DNA from: an uncultured Clostridia bacterium
GTDB taxonomy: Bacteria > Bacillota > Limnochordia > Darwinibacteriales > Darwinibacteriaceae
Direction: 5' to 3'
DNA: 33,458 nucleotides
Assembly (NCBI GenBank): GCA_900018335.1
Contig: FIZK01000029.1
Coordinates: forward strand, 1 to 33,458
A model generated the notes under the pieces. That model worked only from the letters and a program-made list of their open reading frames with translations, had not been told where the DNA came from and did no database searches. This document shows positions 61 through 17,027 of this stretch, piece by piece (within the stretch, counting starts at the first letter, position 1; the number at the start of each line of letters is the position of its first letter). Both the position numbers and the translations under genes were made by a program.

Positions 61-1416
61 CTAAATACCTGCAATCGCGAGATTGCTGATGATGAGCGAA
101 GGAGAGCCCACATTTCCCCTGTAGCCCGGATTGCCAAACTCTAAATCAGACCCTACGGCTTCCACATTCTCCAGCAACCTGAAGAAGTTGCCGGCGATGG
201 TGATCTGCTCCACGGGACGGACAATCCTTCCCCCCTGTACCAAATAGCCGTAAGCGCCTAAAGAAAAGTCTCCCGAAACGGGATTAGCACCAGAATGGGT
301 CCCCTGCACATTGATGATAATCAGTCCGTCGCCTAAAGCCTGGATCAAATCGGCAAAACCGGCCTGGCCCGGCTCAATGAAGAAGTTGGTGGGGGCGATG
401 CCCACAGGCGACTTAAAGGATGGGCGCGACGCATTGCCAGTGGATTCCACGCCGTCTTTCCGGGCCGTTTTCAGATTGTGGAGATAAGTTGTTAGACGGC
501 CCGCCTCAATCACATTCTTGCGGCGCCCAGCCACCCCTTCCCCATCGAAAGGCGCAGTGGCCGCCCCATTTTCCAGGAGAGGATCGTCCACTAAAGTGAG
601 GGAGGGGCTGGCGATGAGCTCTCCCAGCCTGCCTTGGAGCAGGGACAACCCCTTCTGCACAGCTTCTGCCGAAAAAACAGGAACAAAGGTGCTGAGCAGA
701 TCCCGAGCCACATCACGGCGCAGCAGGATTCTGTAGCCGCCTGAGGAAACGCTGGATGCCCCCAACAGCGAAACGGCCTCCTGCACCGCTTCCTGGGCCA
801 GCTTGCCAGCGTCAAACTTGGACCAATCCTTGTCAAAGAGGAGTTTGGAACCGGATTTGACCTGCCCGTCCTGGCGCACCAAAGCACTGACGTAGCTGTA
901 GGCTCCGTTCGTGGCAAACCCCTGCTCCAAACCCTTCGTGTTGGCGATGTAAACCTCCGCTTCTTCGTAGCCCGTGATGGCGTAGTTTACCTTGAACACC
1001 CGCTCATCGGCCCCCAGGGCAGCCTTTTCCAGCTCCAGGCAGAAGGACACTCTTTCCTCGGGAGAAACCCCAGCCAGTTGCTCATTGTAGCACGAAACCC
1101 GTGGGTAATCAGGGGATCCAGCATAGAAATCCACTTCGTCCTCGGACTCGTTGATTTGGGCATTGGCTTTTGCCGCGGTAACCAGGTATTGTACCGAATC
1201 CTCATCCAAGCTCTCCACATAGGCGTAGCCTACTCTGCCCCCAAACTTGGCGCGCAGGCCCATACCCTGTTCCAGGCTGACCCTGTAATCGTCAACCTCT
1301 CCTTCAAACACCCGTACATTGAACTGCTTAGCCCGGGTACCGTAGATCTCCAGCTCTTCCAGGCCAGCAGCCTGTCCCGCGGCAAATACACGCTCCTTGA
1401 ACTTGCGAAAAACCAT
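61..1416 (-). CDS. pmbA: TldD/PmbA family protein, PmbA (TldE)-like subunit
   Basis: A 451-residue protein of the TldD/PmbA (U62) family, in the usual size range. It lacks the HExxxH zinc motif that its upstream neighbour carries, as expected for the non-catalytic TldE/PmbA half of the heterodimeric peptidase. Family hallmarks visible are GNASRPSFKSP in the middle and, near the C-terminus, GTHSGANPVSGDFSLGA and IAGNF. The ATG at 1416 shares one base with the tldD stop (TAATG), with GGAGG a few bases upstream inside the end of tldD, so the two are translationally coupled. An in-frame extension to 1512 is possible but would run through the end of tldD and has no better ribosome site. In other bacteria the pair trims modified peptides and degrades unfolded peptides; the substrate here is unknown. 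Confidence 0.9.
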   Translation of the reverse strand: MVFRKFKERVFAAGQAAGLEELEIYGTRAKQFNVRVFEGEVDDYRVSLEQGMGLRAKFGGRVGYAYVESLDEDSVQYLVTAAKANAQINESEDEVDFYAGSPDYPRVSCYNEQLAGVSPEERVSFCLELEKAALGADERVFKVNYAITGYEEAEVYIANTKGLEQGFATNGAYSYVSALVRQDGQVKSGSKLLFDKDWSKFDAGKLAQEAVQEAVSLLGASSVSSGGYRILLRRDVARDLLSTFVPVFSAEAVQKGLSLLQGRLGELIASPSLTLVDDPLLENGAATAPFDGEGVAGRRKNVIEAGRLTTYLHNLKTARKDGVESTGNASRPSFKSPVGIAPTNFFIEPGQAGFADLIQALGDGLIIINVQGTHSGANPVSGDFSLGAYGYLVQGGRIVRPVEQITIAGNFFRLLENVEAVGSDLEFGNPGYRGNVGSPSLIISNLAIAGI

Positions 1417-2807
1417 TAGTTTGCCTCCTTCCTTCCGCCCACCGTGATCTCCGCGACCCGAATGGTCGGCTGCCCCACATCTGCGGGAATGGATCCGCTC
1501 AAGGAACCGCACATGCCTTGGCCTGTGGCCAAGTTGGAGGCAACCATGTCGATTTTTTGCAGGATTTCCGAGCCCTTACCAATGAGGGTGGCGCCGCGAA
1601 CAGGTTCTGCAATCTTCCCGTTGCGCACCATGTAACCTTCGGCCACCGCGAAGTTGAACTCGCCGGTGGCTGGATTCACCGAACCTCCGCCCATGCGCTT
1701 GGCATACAGGGCGTATTCGGTGTTGGCGATGATTTCTTCCCGCGTAGATTCGCCGGCGCAGATGAACGTATTGGTCATACGCGATGTGGGCGCGTACTTG
1801 TATGACTGGCGCCTGGCATTGCCGGTGGGTTCCATGCCCATGCGGCGCGCATTCAGCCGGTCAATCATGTATCCCTTAAGAATGCCGTTTTCAATGAGCA
1901 CGTTGCGCCTAGTTTTGGTGCCTTCGTCATCTATGTTCTGCGAGCCCCATGCGTTGGGAATGGTACCGTCGTCCACAGCGGTTACCAGTTCGCTGGCAAT
2001 CTTTTCACCCAGCTTCCCGCTGAACTCGGACACACCCTTGGCCACACTGGTGGCTTCCAGGCTGTGCCCGCAGGCCTCGTGGAAGATCACTCCGCCAAAT
2101 TCGTTATCGATGATCACGGGGTACTTCCCGCCCGGTGCATAGTCCGCATTGACCATGGTCACGGCACTCTGGGCAGCATCGCGGGCAATCTCCTCCACAT
2201 CGATGCGCTCAAAGAGTTCAAAGCCCATGTGCCGGCCTGGGCCCCGAAACGCGGACTGCTTCTCTTGGCCCTTACTGGCCACTGCGTTGATGGACAAGCG
2301 GGTCCTGACCCTACGATCCTCCACCAACAGCCCTTCCGAGTTGGCTATGCACACATTCTGATCCACATCCCAGTAGTTCACTGCTACTTGGGTGATCTGT
2401 TCATGAAAACCAGCCGCGGCCAGGTGGGCCCTTTTCATCACGGCAACCCGATCCCCATGCTTGACCAGCCGGGGCTCAAGGCGCACAGGATTGAACTTCT
2501 CCACGGCCAGGCGCGCCAAGACGACGGTTTTCCCTGCCGGCACCCCACGCAATGCGGCGGCAGCTTCCCGGGCTGTCTTGATCAGGCCTTCACGGCTCAC
2601 ATCATTGGTATAAGCATACACGCTCTGCCAACCCTGAAAGATGCGGATGCCCACCCCGAAGTCCCGTCCACTTACCGCTTCATCCACTGCGCCATCGAGC
2701 ATGCGGATCTGGGTGCTGTAAGTGTCCTCCATGAAAATTTCTGCAAAATCGCCACCGGTTGACAAGGCGGCCAGAAGCACGTCAGTGATTACGTTTTCAG
2801 AAAGCAA
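1416..2807 (-). CDS. tldD: Metalloprotease TldD
   Basis: The catalytic subunit of the TldD/TldE peptidase, 463 residues. The zinc motif HEACGH lies at about residues 243-248. The C-terminal GMCG motif carries the cysteine that serves as a further metal ligand in TldD, followed by VGQPTIRV. I chose the TTG at 2807 because a GGGAGGG site lies about 5 bases upstream; the ATG at 2846 has no ribosome site and would overlap the divergent promoter at 2828-2836. It is the first gene of a run with pmbA and the partial gene at the window start. TldD/TldE removes leader peptides from some modified peptides and is active on unstructured peptides. No known RiPP modification enzyme is visible in the window. 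Confidence 0.93.
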   Translation of the reverse strand: MLSENVITDVLLAALSTGGDFAEIFMEDTYSTQIRMLDGAVDEAVSGRDFGVGIRIFQGWQSVYAYTNDVSREGLIKTAREAAAALRGVPAGKTVVLARLAVEKFNPVRLEPRLVKHGDRVAVMKRAHLAAAGFHEQITQVAVNYWDVDQNVCIANSEGLLVEDRRVRTRLSINAVASKGQEKQSAFRGPGRHMGFELFERIDVEEIARDAAQSAVTMVNADYAPGGKYPVIIDNEFGGVIFHEACGHSLEATSVAKGVSEFSGKLGEKIASELVTAVDDGTIPNAWGSQNIDDEGTKTRRNVLIENGILKGYMIDRLNARRMGMEPTGNARRQSYKYAPTSRMTNTFICAGESTREEIIANTEYALYAKRMGGGSVNPATGEFNFAVAEGYMVRNGKIAEPVRGATLIGKGSEILQKIDMVASNLATGQGMCGSLSGSIPADVGQPTIRVAEITVGGRKEAN

Positions 2808-2827
2808 ACAAAACCCTCCCTGTTCTG

Positions 2828-2836
2828 TGATATAAT
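2828..2836 (+). promoter_or_regulatory. Extended -10 promoter for the 61-residue gene
   Basis: The sequence TGATATAAT matches the extended -10 consensus (TGnTATAAT) exactly. There is no good -35 box 16-18 bases upstream, which extended -10 promoters tolerate. Transcription would start near 2843, about 27 bases before the ATG of the small gene. It lies just upstream of the tldD start on the opposite strand. Confidence 0.6.
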
Positions 2837-2869
2837 TGTGGCGCACATTACTGAGAAAGGATGTCGTAC

Positions 2870-3055
2870 ATGCTGCCCAGTGACATCATCTGGCGGTTAA
2901 CGGAACGCCTAACTGAACTACAAGTCCTCTGCGAAGAGAGCATTAAGCAGCTGCACCCCAAAAAGAACCAGGACTTAATCTCCAGCATCGAAGAGTGCGA
3001 GCGCCTCTGCCGCACCCAGCTGAATGTGATGAACCGCATCGCCAAGCGATACTAG
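2870..3055 (+). CDS. Small hypothetical protein, 61 residues
   Basis: I do not recognise this protein. It is predicted to be almost wholly helical, charged, and contains three cysteines (in VLCEES and EECERLC), with a basic end (NRIAKRY). The ATG at 2870 has AAAGGA about 8 bases upstream; an ATG at 2861 in the same frame touches that site and is less likely. A perfect extended -10 promoter lies upstream, which supports a real gene. Its last 81 bases overlap the 3' end of the convergent DUF123 gene. It is divergent from tldD. It resembles the short soluble helical proteins common in Firmicutes; a link to TldD is only positional. Confidence 0.6.
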   Translation: MLPSDIIWRLTERLTELQVLCEESIKQLHPKKNQDLISSIEECERLCRTQLNVMNRIAKRY

Positions 3056-3430
3056 CTCCGGCCCCACTCCAGGCAGATGTATCAAATGGGAAGGGCAAGA
3101 GCAGTCCGATGAACCCAGACCCGGCGCGGGAATCGCGGCCCCTGGAAAGCGCAGGAGCTGCGCAGCACAGCTGCATTCCCCGGCCTTGGGGGCTTCAGGA
3201 AAGACGGATACACCCAAAAAACCTGCCTCGGCCCGGAAATAATCAACATGCCAGTGCAGCGTCTTTTCCAGCCTGCGGTGCCTGGCAATTCGCTGCTGGA
3301 GGTTGCGCTGGGCACTGCCAGCATAGGCGTAAACACCGGGGGGAAAGGTAAAGATCCCCAACCTGCCCACGGTGATGGTGGCCCTCTGCGACAGATGCAG
3401 CCAAAGCACATAGACGCCGGAATTAGGCAT
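2975..3430 (-). CDS. DUF123 / GIY-YIG-like (Uri superfamily) protein
   Basis: A 151-residue protein matching the DUF123 family (COG1833), distantly related to GIY-YIG endonucleases and also found fused to some endonuclease III proteins. Visible hallmarks are GVYVLWL at the N-terminus, FPPGVYAYAGSA, the basic RIARHRR, KTLHWHVDYFRAEA, and the C-terminal GLGSSDCSCPSHL. The ATG at 3430 has a purine-rich GGAAGGGGG site upstream; an in-frame ATG at 3448 is less likely. The domain ends near residue 120, and the remaining roughly 30 residues lie entirely in the region that overlaps the small convergent gene, so the tail may be a read-through extension. A nuclease activity is inferred from the fold only. 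Confidence 0.82.
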   Translation of the reverse strand: MPNSGVYVLWLHLSQRATITVGRLGIFTFPPGVYAYAGSAQRNLQQRIARHRRLEKTLHWHVDYFRAEAGFLGVSVFPEAPKAGECSCAAQLLRFPGAAIPAPGLGSSDCSCPSHLIHLPGVGPELVSLGDAVHHIQLGAAEALALFDAGD

Positions 3431-3535
3431 GGCACAGCCCCCTTCCACCTGTTCTAGTTTAATTCTCGCCTATGCAGGTTTTTCCTTTAGCGACCAGAAA
3501 TAATAGAGTTAAACCAGAGGATTGGAGGGAAATTG

Positions 3536-4594
3536 GTGGATGTAAAAGAGGTCTTTCGCAGCTTAAGCGAGGCAGCGGGCGTATCAGGCTACGAGCTCGA
3601 GCTGGCGAAACTCATTGAACAGGGCTGTCCCTGGGCGGATGAAACGCGTCTAGACAAACTAGGCAACCTGATCATGCTGAAAAAGGGCCAGGGGCCCGAA
3701 CCCAGGCCTAAAGTAATGCTGGCCGCCCATATGGACGAAATTGGCCTCGTAATCACCAAAATCGAGAAGGAAGGCTTCCTGCGCTTCAGCACCATTGGCG
3801 GCTTTGATCAGCGGGTGCTGCTGGCCCAGGAAGTTGTGGTTCACGGAAGGCAGAAAGCGCTCACAGGCGTTATTGGAGCTAAGCCGCCCCACATCCAGGC
3901 TCCCGGAGAGCAGAACAAAGCGGTGAAGATGGAAGATCTATTCATTGACGCCGGCTTTGACAGTGCTGAAGAAGCCGCTGAACACGTGCGGGTGGGCGAT
4001 CTAGTCACCATTAAGCGCAGGGTTTCTAACCTGCAGAGCTCCTTCATGGCAGGTAAGGCCTTTGACGACCGAGCTGGGGTAGCCGCCATTTTGGAGTGCT
4101 TTAAGACCCTGTCCAAGATCGACCACCAAGCGGATGTGTACGGTGTTGCCACCGTGCAGGAAGAGGTGGGCTTGAGGGGTGCCATCACCAGCACCTATGG
4201 AATCATACCTGATATCGGTATTGCCATCGATGTGGGTTTCGGCGATTCTCCAGGCCTTCCCGAAACCGATACCATAAAACTGAGCAAAGGGCCGGGTATC
4301 GCCATGGGGCCCCATGTGCATCCCAAGCTGCATACCCGCATGGTGGAAACGGCCAAAGAATGGAACATCAGCTACTCCCTTGATCCATCGCCCTACCCGG
4401 GAGGAACCGACGCCTACGCCATCCAAGTGGCTAGAGCCGGAGTGGCCACCATTTTGCTGTCCATTCCCCTGAGATACATGCACACTCCCGTGGAAACCCT
4501 GGATTACCAGGATGTCCAGCGCACAGGGCGCTTGATGGCCATGTTCATCGCCGGCCTGGATCAAGAATTTGTGGAGGGATTGACATGCTTTTAG
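3536..4594 (+). CDS. M42 family metallopeptidase, first of three
   Basis: A cobalt/zinc aminopeptidase of family M42 (FrvX/YsdC/TET type), 352 residues. All five metal ligands and the catalytic glutamates are in place: AAHMDEIG (about residue 66), KAFDDRAGV (about 180), VQEEVGLRG (about 215), AIDVGFGD (about 238) and YMHTP (about 320). GGAGGG lies 6 bases before GTG 3536; a TTG at 3533 is the alternative start but sits too close. M42 enzymes form hollow dodecamers that trim amino acids from peptides released by larger proteases. This is the first gene of a three-gene operon and overlaps the second by 10 bases. No convincing promoter was found in 3431-3532. Confidence 0.93.
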   Translation: MDVKEVFRSLSEAAGVSGYELELAKLIEQGCPWADETRLDKLGNLIMLKKGQGPEPRPKVMLAAHMDEIGLVITKIEKEGFLRFSTIGGFDQRVLLAQEVVVHGRQKALTGVIGAKPPHIQAPGEQNKAVKMEDLFIDAGFDSAEEAAEHVRVGDLVTIKRRVSNLQSSFMAGKAFDDRAGVAAILECFKTLSKIDHQADVYGVATVQEEVGLRGAITSTYGIIPDIGIAIDVGFGDSPGLPETDTIKLSKGPGIAMGPHVHPKLHTRMVETAKEWNISYSLDPSPYPGGTDAYAIQVARAGVATILLSIPLRYMHTPVETLDYQDVQRTGRLMAMFIAGLDQEFVEGLTCF

Positions 4595-5610
4595 CCCGTT
4601 TGACACAGGCCAACGGCGCACCTGGGCAGGAAAATGAGGTGCGCGATCTGATCCGCGCCGAAGTTGAAGCCCATGCCCACGTTGTGAAAACCGATGCCCT
4701 GGGCAACCTCTTGGCCATCAAGAACCCAGATGCTCCCGGGCCAAAGGTGATGCTAGCCGCCCACATGGATGAAGTTGCCCTCATGATCGTGGGCATTGAC
4801 GGCGACGGCTACCTCAAGTTCCGCCCCATAGGTGGCGTGGATCCCCGGGTGTTGGTGGCGAAAACGGTAGTTGTGGGCTCTAAGAAAACCCCGGGAGTGA
4901 TCGGAAGCAAGCCCATTCACCTACAGAGGCCCGAGGAAAGGGAAAACGCCTTTACCGTCCGGGAGCTTCTGATCGATATTGGCGCCAAGAGCAAGGAAGA
5001 GGCGGAGAAGTTGGTGCAGCTGGGCGAAATCGCCTACTTCACCACGGAGTATGAAGAGGTTGCTAATGGCAAGGTTAAGGCAAAGGCCTTAGATGATAGG
5101 GTTGGGTGCGCCTTGGCCATCCGCCTCCTGCAGGAAGAAGTCTCCTTCCCCTTGATTGCCGCCTTCACGGTGCAAGAAGAAGTGGGCCTCAGGGGTGCCG
5201 GAGTTGCCGCTTACCAGGTAGAACCGGATCTGGCCTTGATTCTGGAAGGCACCACCGCCTCCGACGTGCCCGGAACTGATGAGCACAGGCAGGCTACTGC
5301 CCTGGGACAGGGCCCGGCCATCACCGTCATGGACCGCACGGTCATTACCAACCCGGAACTGGTGCAGGAACTGTTTGCTCTGGCAGCGGAAAAGGGAATC
5401 AAGGTCCAGGTTCGCCGCAGCACGGCCGGGGGAACAGATGCCGGGCGGATTCAGCTGTCGGGGACCGGTGTGAAGGTGGCAACCATCGCGGTGCCCTGCC
5501 GCTACATCCATTCGCCGGCTTCGATCATGTGTAAAGACGACTTTGAAGGAGCTTACCAGCTCGTTAAACACTACTTAGCACGGCTTGAAGAAAGGGCGGG
5601 ATTGAGTTGA
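4585..5610 (+). CDS. M42 family metallopeptidase, second of three
   Basis: A second M42 aminopeptidase paralogue of 341 residues. The ligands read AAHMDEVAL, KALDDRVGC, VQEEVGLRG, LILEGTTASD and YIHSP. The fourth ligand position is glutamate (ILEGT) where the first and third proteins have aspartate (DVG, DVT); this is a known variation in the family and may alter specificity. A stretch of LQRPEERENAF takes the place of the corresponding loop in the first paralogue. The ATG at 4585 lies inside the end of the first peptidase, with GGAGGGAT upstream, so translation is coupled. Its stop overlaps the next start (TTGA). Confidence 0.93.
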   Translation: MLLARLTQANGAPGQENEVRDLIRAEVEAHAHVVKTDALGNLLAIKNPDAPGPKVMLAAHMDEVALMIVGIDGDGYLKFRPIGGVDPRVLVAKTVVVGSKKTPGVIGSKPIHLQRPEERENAFTVRELLIDIGAKSKEEAEKLVQLGEIAYFTTEYEEVANGKVKAKALDDRVGCALAIRLLQEEVSFPLIAAFTVQEEVGLRGAGVAAYQVEPDLALILEGTTASDVPGTDEHRQATALGQGPAITVMDRTVITNPELVQELFALAAEKGIKVQVRRSTAGGTDAGRIQLSGTGVKVATIAVPCRYIHSPASIMCKDDFEGAYQLVKHYLARLEERAGLS

Positions 5611-6608
5611 AAGCCATCATTGAACAGTTAACCCAGGCCTTCGGCCCCTCTGGTTACGAGACGGAAGTTACGGCACTAATCAGGGAGATGATCAAGGACC
5701 AGGCTGACGAGATCCGCACCGATGTCCTGGGCAACCTCATTGCCGTGAAGAACGGCTCACCGGACGGTAAGAAGATCATGTTTGCAGCCCATACCGATGA
5801 AATCGGTATAGTGATCACCTACATAGACGACAAGGGTTTTCTCCGTTTTTCCAATGTGGGCGGCGTGGGCATAGCAACCCTGGTGGGCAGCCGAGTCCGC
5901 TTTGCCAATGGAACCATCGGCGTGATCTACCAAGAAGGAAAAACGCAGTGGAAAGAACTGACCCTCGATAAACTGTACATTGACATCGGAGCCACCAGCA
6001 GAGAGGAAGCGCTGCAGAAGGTGCGCGTGGGCGAGTTCGGCATCTTCCACCGAGACTTTGCCGATCTGGGCGGCCGCCTGGTGTCCAAGGCCATGGATGA
6101 CCGCATCGGCTGCGCAGTGCTTGTGGAGGCCTTGAAGAGGATCTCCAATCCTAAGAACACGCTCTATTTCGTGTTCACCACCCAAGAAGAGGTTGGACTG
6201 CGGGGAGCCCGCACGGCCGCTTTCGGTATTGAACCTGATCTGGGCGTCGCCCTGGACGTGACCCTTACGGGAGATACACCGGAAGCTTTCCCCATGGCGG
6301 TGGAGCTGGGTAAAGGAGCTGCCATCAAAGTGAAGGATTCCTCCCTTATTGCCCATCCCCGGGTAAAGGATCTCATGGTGGAGCTGTGCGAGACCAAGGG
6401 TATTCCCTACCAAATGGAGGTACTAGCACGCGGAGGAACCGACGCGGGGGCCATCCACGTGAGCAAAGAAGGCGTCCCCTCGGGAACCATCTCCATTCCC
6501 TCCCGCTACGTCCACTCGCCTTCTGAGATGGTAGATCTGGGAGACGTACAGGCCTGCGTAGACCTAGTTCTGGCCATTGCCCAGGCGGATCTTGAGGGAG
6601 TAATCTAG
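5607..6608 (+). CDS. M42 family metallopeptidase, third of three
   Basis: A third M42 aminopeptidase of 333 residues, with ligands AAHTDEIGI, KAMDDRIGC, TQEEVGLRG, ALDVTLTGD and YVHSP. The first motif has threonine where the other two have methionine (AAHTDE versus AAHMDE). The TTG start at 5607 shares three bases with the preceding stop (TTGA), with a GGGCGGG purine stretch upstream, so it depends on coupling. The operon ends just downstream at a strong terminator. The three paralogues are clearly diverged, so they are not a recent tandem duplication and probably have different substrate preferences. Confidence 0.92.
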   Translation: MKAIIEQLTQAFGPSGYETEVTALIREMIKDQADEIRTDVLGNLIAVKNGSPDGKKIMFAAHTDEIGIVITYIDDKGFLRFSNVGGVGIATLVGSRVRFANGTIGVIYQEGKTQWKELTLDKLYIDIGATSREEALQKVRVGEFGIFHRDFADLGGRLVSKAMDDRIGCAVLVEALKRISNPKNTLYFVFTTQEEVGLRGARTAAFGIEPDLGVALDVTLTGDTPEAFPMAVELGKGAAIKVKDSSLIAHPRVKDLMVELCETKGIPYQMEVLARGGTDAGAIHVSKEGVPSGTISIPSRYVHSPSEMVDLGDVQACVDLVLAIAQADLEGVI

Positions 6609-6619
6609 CTAAAAAGCTA

Positions 6620-6655
6620 AGAGCTGCACTGCACAATGCAGGCAGCTCTTTTTTT
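6620..6655 (+). terminator. Rho-independent terminator of the M42 operon
   Basis: An 8-base stem, AGAGCTGC (6620-6627) paired with GCAGCTCT (6642-6649), is followed by a run of T to 6655. It starts 12 bases after the third M42 stop and ends 6 bases before the stop of the convergent ABC permease. On the minus strand the stem is followed by a T-rich stretch (TTAGCTTTTT), so it could also stop the exporter operon. Confidence 0.85.
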
Positions 6656-6660
6656 GTGCC

Positions 6661-12168: not shown

Positions 12169-14784
12169 TTACGCTGTCTCTTGCTTCCTCAAAGCACGCA
12201 CCCGCTCCCAGATGGCTGGATCCAACGGTCTGTCGAAAGCTCGAAAACCGGCCAGGGAGAAGCCCAGCTTCTTGGCGAGGGTGCGCATGAGCTCAAGGTG
12301 CTCCAGATTCAGATCAGCTCCTAAGCTGATATGCTCATAGCGCCCCTCCAGCGCCAGCATCATGGTCTCGGACATGCAGGCAAAGGCAGTCCCCTTCTCA
12401 AAACCGAAATTCCAACCCAGGTCAGGGCTGTTGGGTAAAGCAATAACCCCTCCGTCAATCACCAGCACATCGGGTCTGTCCTGCAGCACGCTTTCGCTCA
12501 CATTGCTGGGCCTGGACATGTCGCAGACCACCGCGCCCTGCTTCAGCAGCTCTGGAGTGATCAACGCTTCCAGGCTGCTGGTGGCCGCCATAATCAGATC
12601 TGCCTTGGGCAGATGGGCCCTGCTTTCCACAGTTACGGTCAAAGGAGCCCCTGAAGCCAGCACACCCCGTGCATAGTCAATCCACGTGCTCAGGGGTGCA
12701 TCTGCAGCTGGCGAATCGCTGAGCCGGGCGGCGAAATCCCCCAGGCTTCCGGGGGCAAAATGCCGCCCTGCCTTCTTCAGCTCCTGCAGATGCTGGATGA
12801 TCTCCACCGCCACTTTGAGCATGCGGTACTCGCTCTTTTCAGGGCGAGCAGGATTGCCAATGAGGATCAAGCGCTGAACCTGCTCCGCGAGGAGCAGCGC
12901 CAGGGCCTTGCCAATGGCTCCCCCCGCACCCACCACCGCACCGGTTACCTTGTTAAGATCCAGACCAACTTGCTGCGCAGCGGTGGTGGCCGCTTCCACG
13001 CCAGAGACAACCGTGTAGCTGTTACCCGTGGTGAGGGCAACTGGAGTATAGGGCAGCAGCTGCCTGCCGCCCATGGTGACCACAGATGTGTAGGCCCCCA
13101 AGCCCACTATTTTCGCTCCCCGCTCAACTGCCAAATCAATGGCGGCCATAATTTCCTCGATGGCCTGCTTTTTGTCCATGGCCAAGAGCTGAGCCGCAGT
13201 CTTAGGTACGCAGATAAAGTCGCCGTAAGCCGTGCGCCCGTACCGATCGACAATGCGTGTGCTGCTGACCACAAAGGGCTCCACCATGTCATTCCAGCGA
13301 GAGCTCAAGTCCTCCAACTGCGCCTCGGTCAAGGCAGCCAAGCTGGCATCGAAATCAGTGTAGTTGCCCAAATCAACGGGGTGCACCAAGAACGCAAAGC
13401 GGCCATCAGCGGGCTCAGGCCGAATCTCCTGTATTGCGCTGGGCGGGAGAGCACTCTCTGCTTGTTCAGGCCGCCTGAAGCTGACCAGGTGGCCCAAAAA
13501 CGCTGCCGTATCCCTGGAAGCCATAAGCTGCACGGTCCGCTCCACGGCGGCGACCACCCGCTCAATCTCTGCATGGCCGATGATCAAGGGCGGCTCAATG
13601 CGGATCACACTGGCTCCGTTGAGGGTCGGCGCCACCCGCACCCTTTCCACGTTCAACAGATACGAAGCCACCATGGGCGTGAGCATTTCCTGCTCTGCCA
13701 TGACGCCCAGCAGGCTGTGGGGATAGGGAGCCCGGGAGTTGGAAAACTCAATGCCCAGCATGAGGCCGCGGCCGCGGATGGCCTTGATCACTTGGGGATA
13801 CTTCTTGGCCACCCGTTCCAAACCAGCCTTGAGCAAGGCACCCTTTTCCTGCACAGCGCTGAGCAAAGCGCCATCGTCCTTGGTCAGAAGGTCCAGCACC
13901 GCCAAGCCTACCCTCGCACCCAGGGAGTTCCCGGCAAAGGTGGAGGAGTGCTTGAGGCCAAAATCCTCTGTGTATGCATCTGCTGTGCAGAGCACGGCGC
14001 CTATGGGAAGCAAGCCTCCGCCAAGCGCTTTGGCCACCACCATGATATCGGGGGTTACTCCGTCCTGTTCGCAGGCAAACATGGTCCCCGTGCGCCCCAG
14101 ACCAGACTGGATTTCATCGAAGATGGTGAGCACACCGTAGTTTGCACACAGTTCCCGTACCTGCCGCAGATAACCTGGGGGCGGCTCCACAATGCCCCCC
14201 TCGCCTTGGATGGGTTCTACGATGAAGGCTGCGGTGTCCTGGGCATGATCCTTAAGATAAGCTTCCAGGGCACCAGCATCTCCGAAGGGTATGTGGCTAA
14301 AACCTGGCACAGGCGCACCAAACGCCTTTTGGTAACCCTCGTTGCCCGTCGCGGACAGGGCCCCCAAGGTTTTCCCGTGGAAACTGTTCCTGGTGGAAAG
14401 AATCACGGACCTGCCCGTTTTGGCCCGGGCCAGTTTGAAGGCGGCCTCCACCGCCTCCGCCCCGCTGTTGGCGAAGGTCACATACTGCAGCCCAGGCGGA
14501 GCTGCTGCGATGAGCCTGGCGGCCAGTTCTCCCGCGGCCTCAAGCAGGGAAGGCTGAATAAAACTAGGTTCCTGCCTAGACTCAAGGTCATGAAGGGCTC
14601 GCCAGATTTCGGGAGGGTTGTATCCAAAAGGCAGCGCTCCATAGGCGGCAATGCAGTCCAAGTACTCTTCTCCATTGTGGTCATAGAGGTAAACGCCTTG
14701 GCCTCGCAGAAAGCGCTTATCCAGGCCAATATCCGTGAGCAGTTTTCCCAGGTGTGGATTGACGAATTCTATGTACGGATGCAT
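12169..14784 (-). CDS. Class III aminotransferase fused to acyl-ACP-reductase-like domain
   Basis: An 871-residue two-domain protein. Residues 1 to about 425 are a class III (ornithine/putrescine type) PLP aminotransferase: NSGAEAVEAAFKLAR (107-120), FDEIQSGLGRTG (222-233) and the PLP lysine K252 in VVAKALGGG. Residues 460-871 resemble cyanobacterial acyl-ACP reductase and COG5322: GLGAYTSVV (561-569), TTGNSYT (585-591), the nucleotide-binding GAGGAIG (619-625), DGGVIALP (777-784) and FACMSETMMLALEG (801-814). C803 matches the cysteine that carries the acyl group in cyanobacterial AAR. Residues about 647-715 are an insertion not found in cyanobacterial AAR. The ATG at 14784 has GGGGAGG about 7 bases upstream. 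Inferred role: acyl thioester to aldehyde to amine, or the reverse. The gene is monocistronic with its own promoter and terminator. Confidence 0.88.
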   Translation of the reverse strand: MHPYIEFVNPHLGKLLTDIGLDKRFLRGQGVYLYDHNGEEYLDCIAAYGALPFGYNPPEIWRALHDLESRQEPSFIQPSLLEAAGELAARLIAAAPPGLQYVTFANSGAEAVEAAFKLARAKTGRSVILSTRNSFHGKTLGALSATGNEGYQKAFGAPVPGFSHIPFGDAGALEAYLKDHAQDTAAFIVEPIQGEGGIVEPPPGYLRQVRELCANYGVLTIFDEIQSGLGRTGTMFACEQDGVTPDIMVVAKALGGGLLPIGAVLCTADAYTEDFGLKHSSTFAGNSLGARVGLAVLDLLTKDDGALLSAVQEKGALLKAGLERVAKKYPQVIKAIRGRGLMLGIEFSNSRAPYPHSLLGVMAEQEMLTPMVASYLLNVERVRVAPTLNGASVIRIEPPLIIGHAEIERVVAAVERTVQLMASRDTAAFLGHLVSFRRPEQAESALPPSAIQEIRPEPADGRFAFLVHPVDLGNYTDFDASLAALTEAQLEDLSSRWNDMVEPFVVSSTRIVDRYGRTAYGDFICVPKTAAQLLAMDKKQAIEEIMAAIDLAVERGAKIVGLGAYTSVVTMGGRQLLPYTPVALTTGNSYTVVSGVEAATTAAQQVGLDLNKVTGAVVGAGGAIGKALALLLAEQVQRLILIGNPARPEKSEYRMLKVAVEIIQHLQELKKAGRHFAPGSLGDFAARLSDSPAADAPLSTWIDYARGVLASGAPLTVTVESRAHLPKADLIMAATSSLEALITPELLKQGAVVCDMSRPSNVSESVLQDRPDVLVIDGGVIALPNSPDLGWNFGFEKGTAFACMSETMMLALEGRYEHISLGADLNLEHLELMRTLAKKLGFSLAGFRAFDRPLDPAIWERVRALRKQETA

Positions 14785-14810
14785 GCTGGTACCTCCCCAG
14801 AGCATTGAGC

Positions 14811-14828
14811 ACACTTTGTGCACAGTGT
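14811..14828. promoter_or_regulatory. Operator-like inverted repeat at the fusion-gene start site
   Basis: ACACT (14811-14815) and AGTGT (14824-14828) flank a spacer that itself contains the perfect palindrome TGTGCACA (14817-14824). It covers the predicted transcription start at about 14824 and would suit a repressor. No regulator gene lies next to it. Chance occurrence of so short a repeat is possible. Confidence 0.4.
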
Positions 14829-14830
14829 TA

Positions 14831-14859
14831 ATTATACCAACTCTAGGCAGGGATTTCAA
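14831..14859 (-). promoter_or_regulatory. Sigma-A type promoter of the fusion gene
   Basis: On the minus strand a -35 box TTGAAA (14859-14854) and a consensus -10 TATAAT (14836-14831) are separated by exactly 17 bases. Start of transcription is expected near 14824, about 40 bases before the ATG at 14784. Confidence 0.85.
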
Positions 14860-14922: not shown

Positions 14923-16173
14923 ATGAAGAAAAGTCTAATCGTGCTTCTGTCAGTGCTTTTGCTGTGGGGAACGGCGGAAGCCCGGATCGATGTCTTTTAT
15001 CTTCCTGAAAGCGGTTTCTTGCGGGTTTCAGGGGAAGTAGTTATTGAACCAGAGGCGGCATCGGTGTCTTTTCTCATCTTCCCCACTGCCCACCTCACGG
15101 AGTTCTGGGCCGATGGCCTGGTGGAATACAGCGTGCAGAGGTATCCCCACAGCACCGCGGTGAGCTTTGCCGTGCGGGAGGTCCAGACGCAGACTGTGAC
15201 CTTCGCCTATGAAGGGCTGGTGGAAGCGCAGCTGCGCGAGGCCGTGCTGGGTCCCGACCAGCTTTGGCTGCCCCAGTTCACCGTCCCGGTACAGACCTCC
15301 ACCGTGGCCCTGCAGCTCCCTGAAAACTGGGAAGTTGTGGCCGGCGATATACAGGCAGTGGAGAAGCAGGGGGCGTTCCAGACGATCCAGCTCGAACCCT
15401 CCTCCCTGTACCCCACCGTTGAGCTGGCCAACACCGCTGAGGCGCCGGAGCCAGCTGAGGCAGGGACGGATGAGGCCGAGCCCATCCTGCCCCTGGAAGA
15501 TCAGGAACCTGAACCGGAAAGGGAAGAAAGCGCAGAACTGGATGAGCTGGGCGCGCGCATCCAGATTCAGATCAACAGGTTCACGCGGGCCCTCAACAAC
15601 CGCAGTCTGGCCGACTTGACAGAGCTGATCAGTGCCGACCTGCAGCAGGAAGGGCTTGCCGACTATCTAGCCAGCCTGCCGCAGTACTTCGGCCGGATCT
15701 CCAGTGCCGTTTTGGAAGTACCGGCGGATCCGAACGGTGCCTACGTGGTTCTTTTCTCCACCGAAAGGGGCACGCACTACACCGCCGTTATGGCCTGGCA
15801 GGAGACGGCAGGTTCACTGCAGCTGCACGAGTTCCGCCTCGTTCCCCAGGAGGCTGAAGTGCCCCCAGAGATCGCTGAGTCCTGTGCCTTCTTCGTGCGC
15901 GAACTGCAAACCGCCCTGAGGGCCGAGAACCGAAGCAGGCTGGAGACGCTGCTTGCTCCCGATCTCAGGCAGGATCCCAGTGAGGTCATGGACTTCCTGT
16001 TCAGCCTGGACAGCACTGGGGACTGGAAGATTGAACAGATCACCCTGGAACCCTTTACCGTAACGATACCGGTGCCAACTGCCCAAGGAGCCAAACTCCT
16101 CCTACAGCTGGATTTGACCCCAGGGCAGTACAACTGGCTGCTAAGGGGAGTGCAGGTCGTTCCCCTTTCCTGA
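14923..16173 (+). CDS. Secreted protein of unknown function with repeated C-terminal domain
   Basis: I do not recognise this 416-residue protein. Residues 1-20 form a Sec signal peptide (MKKS, hydrophobic core, likely cut after AEA); there is no lipobox. Residues about 21-165 look beta-rich. A proline/glutamate-rich acidic linker spans about 167-206. The rest seems to be two related units: FTRALNNRSLADLTELISADL near 216 echoes LQTALRAENRSRLETLLAPDL near 330, each followed by strands, as in NTF2/SnoaL-like folds (inference). GGAGG lies about 7 bases before the ATG at 14923. It is divergent from the fusion gene and its last 33 bases overlap the convergent Gate-domain gene. No clear promoter was identified. 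Confidence 0.8.
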   Translation: MKKSLIVLLSVLLLWGTAEARIDVFYLPESGFLRVSGEVVIEPEAASVSFLIFPTAHLTEFWADGLVEYSVQRYPHSTAVSFAVREVQTQTVTFAYEGLVEAQLREAVLGPDQLWLPQFTVPVQTSTVALQLPENWEVVAGDIQAVEKQGAFQTIQLEPSSLYPTVELANTAEAPEPAEAGTDEAEPILPLEDQEPEPEREESAELDELGARIQIQINRFTRALNNRSLADLTELISADLQQEGLADYLASLPQYFGRISSAVLEVPADPNGAYVVLFSTERGTHYTAVMAWQETAGSLQLHEFRLVPQEAEVPPEIAESCAFFVRELQTALRAENRSRLETLLAPDLRQDPSEVMDFLFSLDSTGDWKIEQITLEPFTVTIPVPTAQGAKLLLQLDLTPGQYNWLLRGVQVVPLS

Positions 16174-16602
16174 AGGAGCTCCACCGCGTTTGTATACGAT
16201 GTACGACATCAAAAAGGCCAGAATCAACCTGGGCACCAGTAGAAGCAGCAAAGGGGCCCCCAGGACGAAAAAGATGATGGTATCCTCGATCAAGGCATGG
16301 GCAATGGCCATAAAGGTGCCGATGACCTTGGCTTCGCGGGCACTGACCTGGCCCGTGCGCACATGGTTGATGATCAGGCCAGAGCCATAGGTGATGCCGA
16401 AAACAATGGCCACGACCAGGGGAAAAACACCCTCCTCACCCACGCCGATGGCCCGGAAAGGTCTAGCGGCGTAACGGTTGATCTTCTGCAGCCAACCGTT
16501 GGCCTGGGCGATCTCCAACACGATCATCAGAGGGATCACGATGAGGGCGATGTTCACTACGCCGCTTACCCCCTGCAGAAAGCCTTCCCACAGCGCGATC
16601 AC
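16141..16602 (-). CDS. Nucleoside-recognition (Gate) domain membrane protein, SpmB-like
   Basis: A 153-residue membrane protein with about four hydrophobic segments. It carries the Gate-domain hallmarks GITYGSGLI and HALIEDT. It pairs with the preceding gene, overlapping it by 4 bases (ATGA). The pair resembles the split SpmA/SpmB spore-maturation proteins and other half-size nucleoside-recognition proteins, but both partners are shorter than the Bacillus proteins (about 178-196 residues), so the spore role is only a possibility. The 3' end overlaps the convergent secreted-protein gene by 33 bases. Confidence 0.78.
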   Translation of the reverse strand: MIALWEGFLQGVSGVVNIALIVIPLMIVLEIAQANGWLQKINRYAARPFRAIGVGEEGVFPLVVAIVFGITYGSGLIINHVRTGQVSAREAKVIGTFMAIAHALIEDTIIFFVLGAPLLLLLVPRLILAFLMSYIVYKRGGAPSGKGNDLHSP

Positions 16603-17027
16603 GGCAGCACCACCCCCAAGACCCAGCCCATGGCCAGGGAACAGCCCAGGCGGATCAAGAAGATGTAGCCCAAGGAGCTGCCCGCCTTCTTGCTGATGGG
16701 CAGCTCAACCAGGAGCGAATGGCAGAGCAGAAGCATGACGGAACAGATGGTGATCTCCTTCACGGTAAGTGTCAAGGCCATGATGCTTCCCGCCGCAGCA
16801 TAGAGATTGATAAAATAGCCACTGAACAGCACAAGGGCCGCCTCGCCCGACAGCCCAAACCAGTTCATATAAGGTGCAAAAAACGCCGTGATCGTCTCCA
16901 GCAAACCGCTGGCTCGAAAGACTGACACCACCACAGCCGTGGGCACCACCACCTTGGCCAGCTCCCAGGTGGTTGCCACTCCCGCCTTAGCACCCTTCTC
17001 AATCATCTTCCCCGTCACGTGGAACAT
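16599..17027 (-). CDS. Nucleoside-recognition (Gate) domain membrane protein, SpmA-like
   Basis: A 142-residue membrane protein, first of a coupled pair. The segment WELAKVVVPTAVVVSVFRASGLLETI is typical of Gate-domain proteins, followed by a GLSGEAALVLFSGYFINLYAA segment that echoes the metal/nucleoside transporter half. Starts at 17027 and 17006 are both possible: AAGGAG lies about 12 bases before the first, and the second overlaps the pseudouridine-synthase stop with GGGGAAG just upstream. Placement at the end of the zinc-transporter run suggests co-transcription. Confidence 0.72.
   Translation of the reverse strand: MFHVTGKMIEKGAKAGVATTWELAKVVVPTAVVVSVFRASGLLETITAFFAPYMNWFGLSGEAALVLFSGYFINLYAAAGSIMALTLTVKEITICSVMLLLCHSLLVELPISKKAGSSLGYIFLIRLGCSLAMGWVLGVVLP

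Follow-up and report, generated by a model that had tools for sequence, protein, structure and literature searches.

A widespread bacterial array of three M42 peptidase genes with catalytically silent members suggests a mixed TET-type particle

The stretch of DNA analysed here (the window) comprises 33,458 nucleotides of contig FIZK01000029.1 from an uncultured Clostridia bacterium (assembly GCA_900018335.1) and carries three consecutive, overlapping genes for M42 peptidases, which we call A, B and C. TET particles consist of twelve subunits paired into six dimers, and three active sites lie close to every apex. Judging from the genes alone, we consider it probable that A, B and C come together in a single hetero-oligomeric M42 aminopeptidase of the TET type that trims cytosolic peptides. 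Support for such a mixed particle comes from the conserved order of the genes, their recurrent overlap, the mostly all-or-none occurrence of the array, and the presence of inactive C or B subunits beside an intact A. The loss of catalysis is the strongest new evidence among these. An inactive homododecamer would be of little use whereas an inactive subunit of a mixed particle could be useful, so the retention of inactive C is suggestive of mixed assembly.

Three overlapping M42 genes

All three genes lie on the plus strand: A at positions 3536–4594 (GTG start), B at 4585–5610 (ATG start) and C at 5607–6608 (TTG start). A and B overlap by 10 nucleotides (4585–4594), and B and C by 4 (5607–5610). 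Ribosome-binding sites of sequence GGAGG, suitably spaced from the starts, can be read on the same strand before A (3524–3528) and, for B, within A (4573–4577). An in-frame TTG at 3533 is an alternative start for A; the GGAGG at 3524–3528 suits the GTG. Downstream of C, a hairpin at about 6619–6650 followed by a T run (6619–6656 in all, plus strand) is the probable operon terminator, the enclosing stretch folding at −25.9 kcal/mol (z −2.9). It does not appear among the 7 sites listed by a mechanical terminator scan (5.0 expected by chance), which may have missed it because of a bulge in the stem. The first-pass annotation of this DNA had described three complete, diverged M42 genes that overlap end to start and finish at a single terminator, and this description holds, with the terminator as a probable one.

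A, B and C match the full PF05343 model (1–292) with 316.3, 316.1 and 318.5 bits (cut-off 23.2), with B sharing 36% and C 43% identity with A. As had been stated earlier for the metal ligands, the active site is kept in all three: each of seven positions (His, Asp, Asp, catalytic Glu, ligand Glu, Asp/Glu and His) is retained. The two differences that had been pointed out between the paralogues are also there, namely Glu (E221) at the fourth ligand of B versus Asp in A and C, and distinct motifs around the first His (AAHMDEIG, AAHMDEVA and AAHTDEIG for A, B and C). The structure predicted for B has an M42 fold (predicted local distance difference test score, pLDDT, 86.7) and matches 1y0r, the Pyrococcus horikoshii TET2, with Z 42.4 and a root mean square deviation (rmsd) of 1.9 over 322 residues; A and C match solved TETs at the sequence level. 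We could not assign any of the three to a substrate specificity because the cut-offs of the NCBIfam equivalog models are far from reached, whether for PepA (TIGR03107, cut-off 469.7; A 158.1, B 203.0 and C 172.2 bits) or for archaeal lysyl aminopeptidase (NF040822, cut-off 700; A 276.7, B 201.0 and C 213.2 bits). Rfam and transfer RNA scans of the window gave no match.

Three ancient clades and a clade-specific metal ligand

In a quick tree of 83 proteins, some of them long-branched, A, B and C form three starred clades (Shimodaira–Hasegawa-like approximate likelihood ratio test, SH-aLRT, 99, 98 and 100), into which the Thermotoga maritima chains 1vho, 2fvg and 3isx fall, respectively. Nine of ten single M42 genes, together with 1vhe and the Methanocaldococcus jannaschii enzyme, are placed outside these clades, and the tenth, L162 from a Bathyarchaeota genome, is sister to clade B. 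The phylogeny that had been proposed as a check gives each gene a clade of its own. The same Bathyarchaeota genome has a B-like M42 gene (L152) with no adjoining A or C. The clades either predate the split of the sampled phyla or have moved between phyla as a set. Chance or recent duplication is ruled out by the sharing of the three clades among several phyla. A fourth full-length M42 gene in the window's own genome (L077, 5386–6456 of contig C62) is distant from all three, scoring 284.5 bits against PF05343 and only 47–62 bits against the triad profiles.

Glu at the fourth ligand is a hallmark of clade B and no local oddity, being present in 170 of 178 B proteins (leaving out L076, a single gene misfiled as B). 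The eight others have Asp (seven) or Gly (one) at this position, and seven of the eight have lost other active-site residues; the B of L153 combines Asp with an otherwise intact active site. Within clan MH, a Glu in place of this Asp is reportedly associated with carboxypeptidases or dipeptidases.

A gene triad shared among bacterial phyla

The array A–B–C is present in 107 of the 118 loci that we read, with identical order and strand in all 107, in Bacillota, Chloroflexota, Caldisericota, WOR-3 and TA06 bacteria. It is a widespread unit, and its recurrence shows that the array is not a product of chance. One set of loci came from a search of the window's own genome and 39 relatives; of all these genomes, 38 contributed a locus: 35 hold A–B–C (in L066 with C cut), 2 are cut by a contig end and one (G037) has A and B only; no M42 match was found in relative G036 by this search. 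For the second set, named genomes were scanned with the B profile and the 80 top-scoring loci taken, which come from the five bacterial groups just listed and one Bathyarchaeota genome; 72 of these hold all three genes. One member is cut at an end in 7 of the 107 triad loci. Of the 11 loci lacking a full triad, 6 are bordered by a contig end, whereas the other 5 are genuinely partial. The apparent duplicate genomes L061/L078 and L062/L082 were kept in these counts.

Because 80 of the 118 loci had been found through gene B, we complemented them with genomes sampled evenly across the phylum (41, including the window's own). Three adjacent M42 genes occur in 14 of these genomes and an internal pair in none; in one genome (G166), C is accompanied by an incomplete copy where the contig stops. 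In a sample of Chloroflexota, three M42 genes stand in a row in 5 of 41 genomes. The overlaps recur as well, an in-frame start for B lying 10 nucleotides inside the end of A in 102 of 141 A/B pairs, and a start that gives C a 4-nucleotide overlap being available in 73 of 170 B/C pairs.

Catalytic residues are lost in C and sometimes in B

We scored the seven active-site positions across the loci, accepting either Asp or Glu at the fourth ligand, and called a C protein inactive under a strict rule if it had lost the catalytic Glu, the ligand Glu or the last His. In the first set (the window and loci up to L157, leaving out L076 and L077), residues are lost in 8 of 111 C, but all 108 A and all 116 B are complete. 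These eight C proteins, from three Alicyclobacillus, two Clostridium, two other Bacillota and one TA06 genome, lack the catalytic Glu and other residues. We then enlarged the set with Alicyclobacillaceae and Clostridiaceae, taking for the latter the best 30 matches only; the enlarged set is enriched for losses because inactive C proteins served as queries. Overall, A is intact in 167 of 168 cases (141/141 in the enlarged set plus 26/27 of the Clostridiaceae full arrays) and B in 171 of 178, whereas C is inactive in 68 of 174 under the strict rule and has lost at least one of the seven positions in 70 of 174.

Matches were found in 38 of 41 Alicyclobacillaceae genomes, the other three having no match for any M42 gene. 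In this family C is inactive in 38 of 38 copies, whereas the B genes (38 of 38) and the 36 uncut copies of A are all intact. Of the seven positions, that of the catalytic Glu varies most in these C proteins (entropy 2.2 bits over 37 rows, leaving out the very divergent L230). The last His is lost in 37 of 37, but the first His and its partner Asp never vary. The His–Asp–Asp ligand set is retained in 34 of the 37, and one metal site may therefore remain.

In the Clostridiaceae (matches in 45 of 59 genomes), C is inactive by the strict rule in 27 of 30 copies, and two more (L251 and L255) lack the fourth ligand only. Four of the C proteins (L237, L238, L239 and L241) have all five ligands and differ only in the replacement of the catalytic Glu. 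B is inactive in 7 of 29 copies, each time beside a C with lost residues and an intact A, which leaves A as the sole subunit with all seven positions (L272, L275, L278, L279, L282, L283 and L287). Clostridiaceae A was read from full arrays in 27 of 28 cases, L286 stopping at a contig end.

Inactive C is maintained in close pairs and probably arose more than once

The inactive C genes are open over their length. In 25 close pairs of loci, the ratio of non-synonymous to synonymous substitution rates (dN/dS) is 0.07–0.22 for C, compared with 0.04–0.12 for A and 0.04–0.17 for B. Close pairs were those with B proteins at least 81% identical (25 of 76 pairs; 23 from Alicyclobacillaceae and 2 from Clostridiaceae), and in one of the latter, L251/L255, C is not inactive by the strict rule. 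The ratios refer to the homologous core; whole frames, some of which overlap gene B, gave values of up to 0.34 for C. Thus, inactive C is under purifying selection where close pairs allow the test, and its decay as a pseudogene is ruled out for these pairs. The inactive C of Alicyclobacillus tolerans, modelled from an alignment of 19 inactive and 5 intact C proteins, has a predicted mean pLDDT of 93 and matches TmPep1050, the T. maritima member of clade C, with Z 44.9 and an rmsd of 1.4 over 323 residues.

Catalysis was likely lost in C more than once. Parsimony requires 6 changes on 174 C proteins, 5 of them forced by starred branches, and 5 changes on 61 C proteins, 3 of them forced, when the active-site columns are removed. 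The approximately unbiased (AU) test rejects the grouping of every inactive C in one clade (p 2e-5) but does not reject that grouping when the active L243 is included (p 0.31); the tree positions of L112 and L260 are weakly supported. The conclusion rests on L243 not being a regain, and several losses are the better reading because regain of the catalytic Glu is unlikely.

Models for the array

In the mixed particle that we favour, the overlapping genes would deliver A, B and C in step, each protein would form a homodimer, as do Pyrococcus TET2 and TET3, and the homodimers would join into a mixed dodecamer, perhaps of 4:4:4 composition, with different active sites in each apex chamber. In the window's organism, where all three are active by sequence, a chamber would hold three pockets, probably differing in the preferred first residue. 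C would have turned into a structural or regulatory subunit in Alicyclobacillaceae and in the majority of Clostridiaceae sampled, and wherever C or B is inactive the particle would have fewer sites in an unchanged frame. A stricter version, which we offer tentatively and think somewhat doubtful, is an obligate three-colour tetrahedron in which A2, B2 and C2 are each used twice, on opposite edges. If each homodimer type takes one pair of opposite edges, every apex would gather one A, one B and one C (4:4:4, 222 symmetry), and A would stay active where one or two colours are silent in Alicyclobacillaceae and Clostridiaceae. Three would be the number of paralogues that this opposite-edge geometry can use.

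Several observations weigh against a mixed particle. C is intact in the window, so inactive subunits bear on it only by way of orthology, and intact C also occurs in the Clostridiaceae sample (L243) and in two genomes that NCBI assigns to Clostridiaceae outside it (L096 and L114). The five truly partial loci lack C (L073, L142 and L148) or A (L156) or have B only (L152). Among the Chloroflexota, match positions place an estimated 0.7–0.8 kilobases, instead of an overlap, between two members in G195, G208 and G218, and G201 has A and B with C not found in the 7.5 kilobases read. A itself is short in L277 (2792–3562, Clostridiaceae), where a 256-residue frame without the last His, either a real truncation or a sequencing error, accompanies an intact B and an inactive C. 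Within Alicyclobacillaceae, the rate of evolution of C exceeds that of A and B; beyond this family, the dN/dS of inactive C comes from a single close pair (L234/L236); and distant pairs, in which dS is saturated, give C values of up to 0.80. Overlapping genes are also found in operons whose products never touch. In addition, TmPep1050 expressed alone is an active leucyl aminopeptidase in vitro, according to the accessible portion of PMC3511314, and a dimeric form of it has been crystallised, going by the title of PDB entry 5ne6. The earlier suggestion that coupled synthesis favours a three-subunit mixed particle gains good comparative support from gene order, overlap, the mostly all-or-none arrays and inactive C or B beside intact A, but the activity of TmPep1050 by itself counts against it.

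That activity would fit three separate homododecamers of complementary specificities, co-regulated as a set for degrading peptides, the arrangement originally reported for TET1, TET2 and TET3 of Pyrococcus. The nearly clade-wide difference at the fourth ligand of B points the same way, as do the distinct specificities of the P. horikoshii enzymes, with PhTET1 active on acidic residues, PhTET2 a leucyl aminopeptidase and PhTET3 active on basic residues in the excerpted text of PMC4220976. We nevertheless regard separate particles as unlikely, since they would leave unexplained both the retention of inactive C in 38/38 Alicyclobacillaceae and 27/30 Clostridiaceae copies and the scarcity of internal pairs and lone members. 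The concentration of catalytic loss in C could instead mean that A and B, or A alone, constitute the enzyme and that C is a separate regulator or inhibitor, binding peptides or docking on the particle without being built into it. The His–Asp–Asp set kept in most Alicyclobacillaceae C would agree with this, since it indicates that the fold, and perhaps one metal, is still selected. However, the fold match of inactive C spans the whole chain, and with C intact in the window, in its class and in 103 of 111 first-set copies such a role would be derived; we judge it quite improbable.

Finally, three homologous neighbours might be no more than a tandem duplication kept by chance or for dosage, with C decaying to a pseudogene where it is not needed, and the rapid evolution of C in Alicyclobacillaceae could be read in this way. 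This would be very hard to reconcile with clades that are older than the split of the phyla or that moved between phyla as a set, and with inactive C genes that are open at full length and have dN/dS far below 1 in close pairs, and we give it almost no credence. A mixed A–B–C particle remains the account that we prefer.

Comparison with known systems

The closest counterpart is in T. maritima, where TM1048, TM1049 and TM1050 (PDB 1vho, 2fvg and 3isx/4p6y) provide one chain for each of clades A, B and C. Their locus numbers are consecutive and run in the same order as A–B–C, and TM1049, like B of the window, has Glu at the fourth ligand in our alignment. We take 1vho to be TM1048 and the three genes to be adjacent, and we know of no report of a joint TM1048–TM1049–TM1050 complex. 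Metals reportedly govern a switch of TmPep1050 between dimer and dodecamer, which would fit the metal site that may remain in inactive C. The difference is that TM1050 is described as a single enzyme in the consulted part of PMC3511314.

Mixed assembly has a precedent in Pyrococcus. The two-paralogue particle to which the first-pass annotation referred is real, although it was reconstituted in vitro from dimers: in the sections of PMC4220976 available to us, TET2 and TET3 homodimers form mixed dodecamers of 6:6 ('Z') and 8:4 ('opposite') composition, and their specificities are mixed at each apex. We read the 'opposite' form of that partial account as having the minority dimers on opposite edges. 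As far as this account goes, the P. horikoshii system resembles ours in combining M42 paralogues of differing specificity in a dodecamer built from homodimers, and differs in having two subunits, both catalytic, mixed in vitro, where we see three encoded in an operon, some of them inactive.

In Bacillus subtilis cells, heteromeric cross-links between YtoP and YsdC are reported in the retrieved passages of PMC10090944 (PDB 9a5r). These, too, are bacterial M42 paralogues cross-linked together in cells, to judge from those passages, but they are two in number, and 1vhe groups with single M42 genes outside clades A, B and C. We presume that 1vhe is the B. subtilis member of this YtoP–YsdC pair. 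Inactive paralogues kept as building blocks are familiar from proteasome beta subunits and from ClpP/ClpR, whose folds are unrelated, so that the likeness is one of analogy only. Among the matches listed from the open-access PMC literature, neither the triad nor any inactive M42 subunit is described; CelM itself was found to be an aminopeptidase in a published study, as far as its excerpt goes.

If A, B and C do assemble together, mixed TET peptidases would be an operon-encoded machine of many bacteria and no longer an archaeal curiosity, and M42 would join the protease families in which paralogues have been turned into inactive building blocks. M42 proteins that have been studied singly, T. 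maritima TmPep1050 included, may belong to a larger assembly. The division of labour among differing active sites within a tetrahedral chamber becomes a testable question. Some genes that match the M42 family cannot be peptidases.

Genomic neighbourhood

Upstream of the M42 operon and divergent from it lie a gene for a DUF123 protein (2975–3448) and then a TldE/PmbA–TldD pair (61–2846, minus strand); a convergent ABC transporter follows downstream. Counting the window, 21 loci have TldD/TldE-like genes upstream, and all of them belong to the class of the window, in which a DUF123 protein (22 loci) and a GDPD phosphodiesterase (20 loci) are also recurrent neighbours. In 10 distant loci a Mur ligase gene lies ahead of the array. 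No functional neighbour is common to all of the 120 loci compared, and since no neighbour family occurs in more than 22 of them, it is the triad that forms the conserved unit.

Elsewhere in the window, an 896-residue frame (12169–14859, minus strand) matches the Pfam class III aminotransferase family only over residues 52–442, the remainder having no family, and a 682-residue frame lies opposite it. Two short adjoining Gate-domain proteins are encoded at 16141–17027 (minus strand), the first scoring just below the Pfam cut-off; we take them to be, perhaps, a pair like the spore-maturation proteins SpmA and SpmB.

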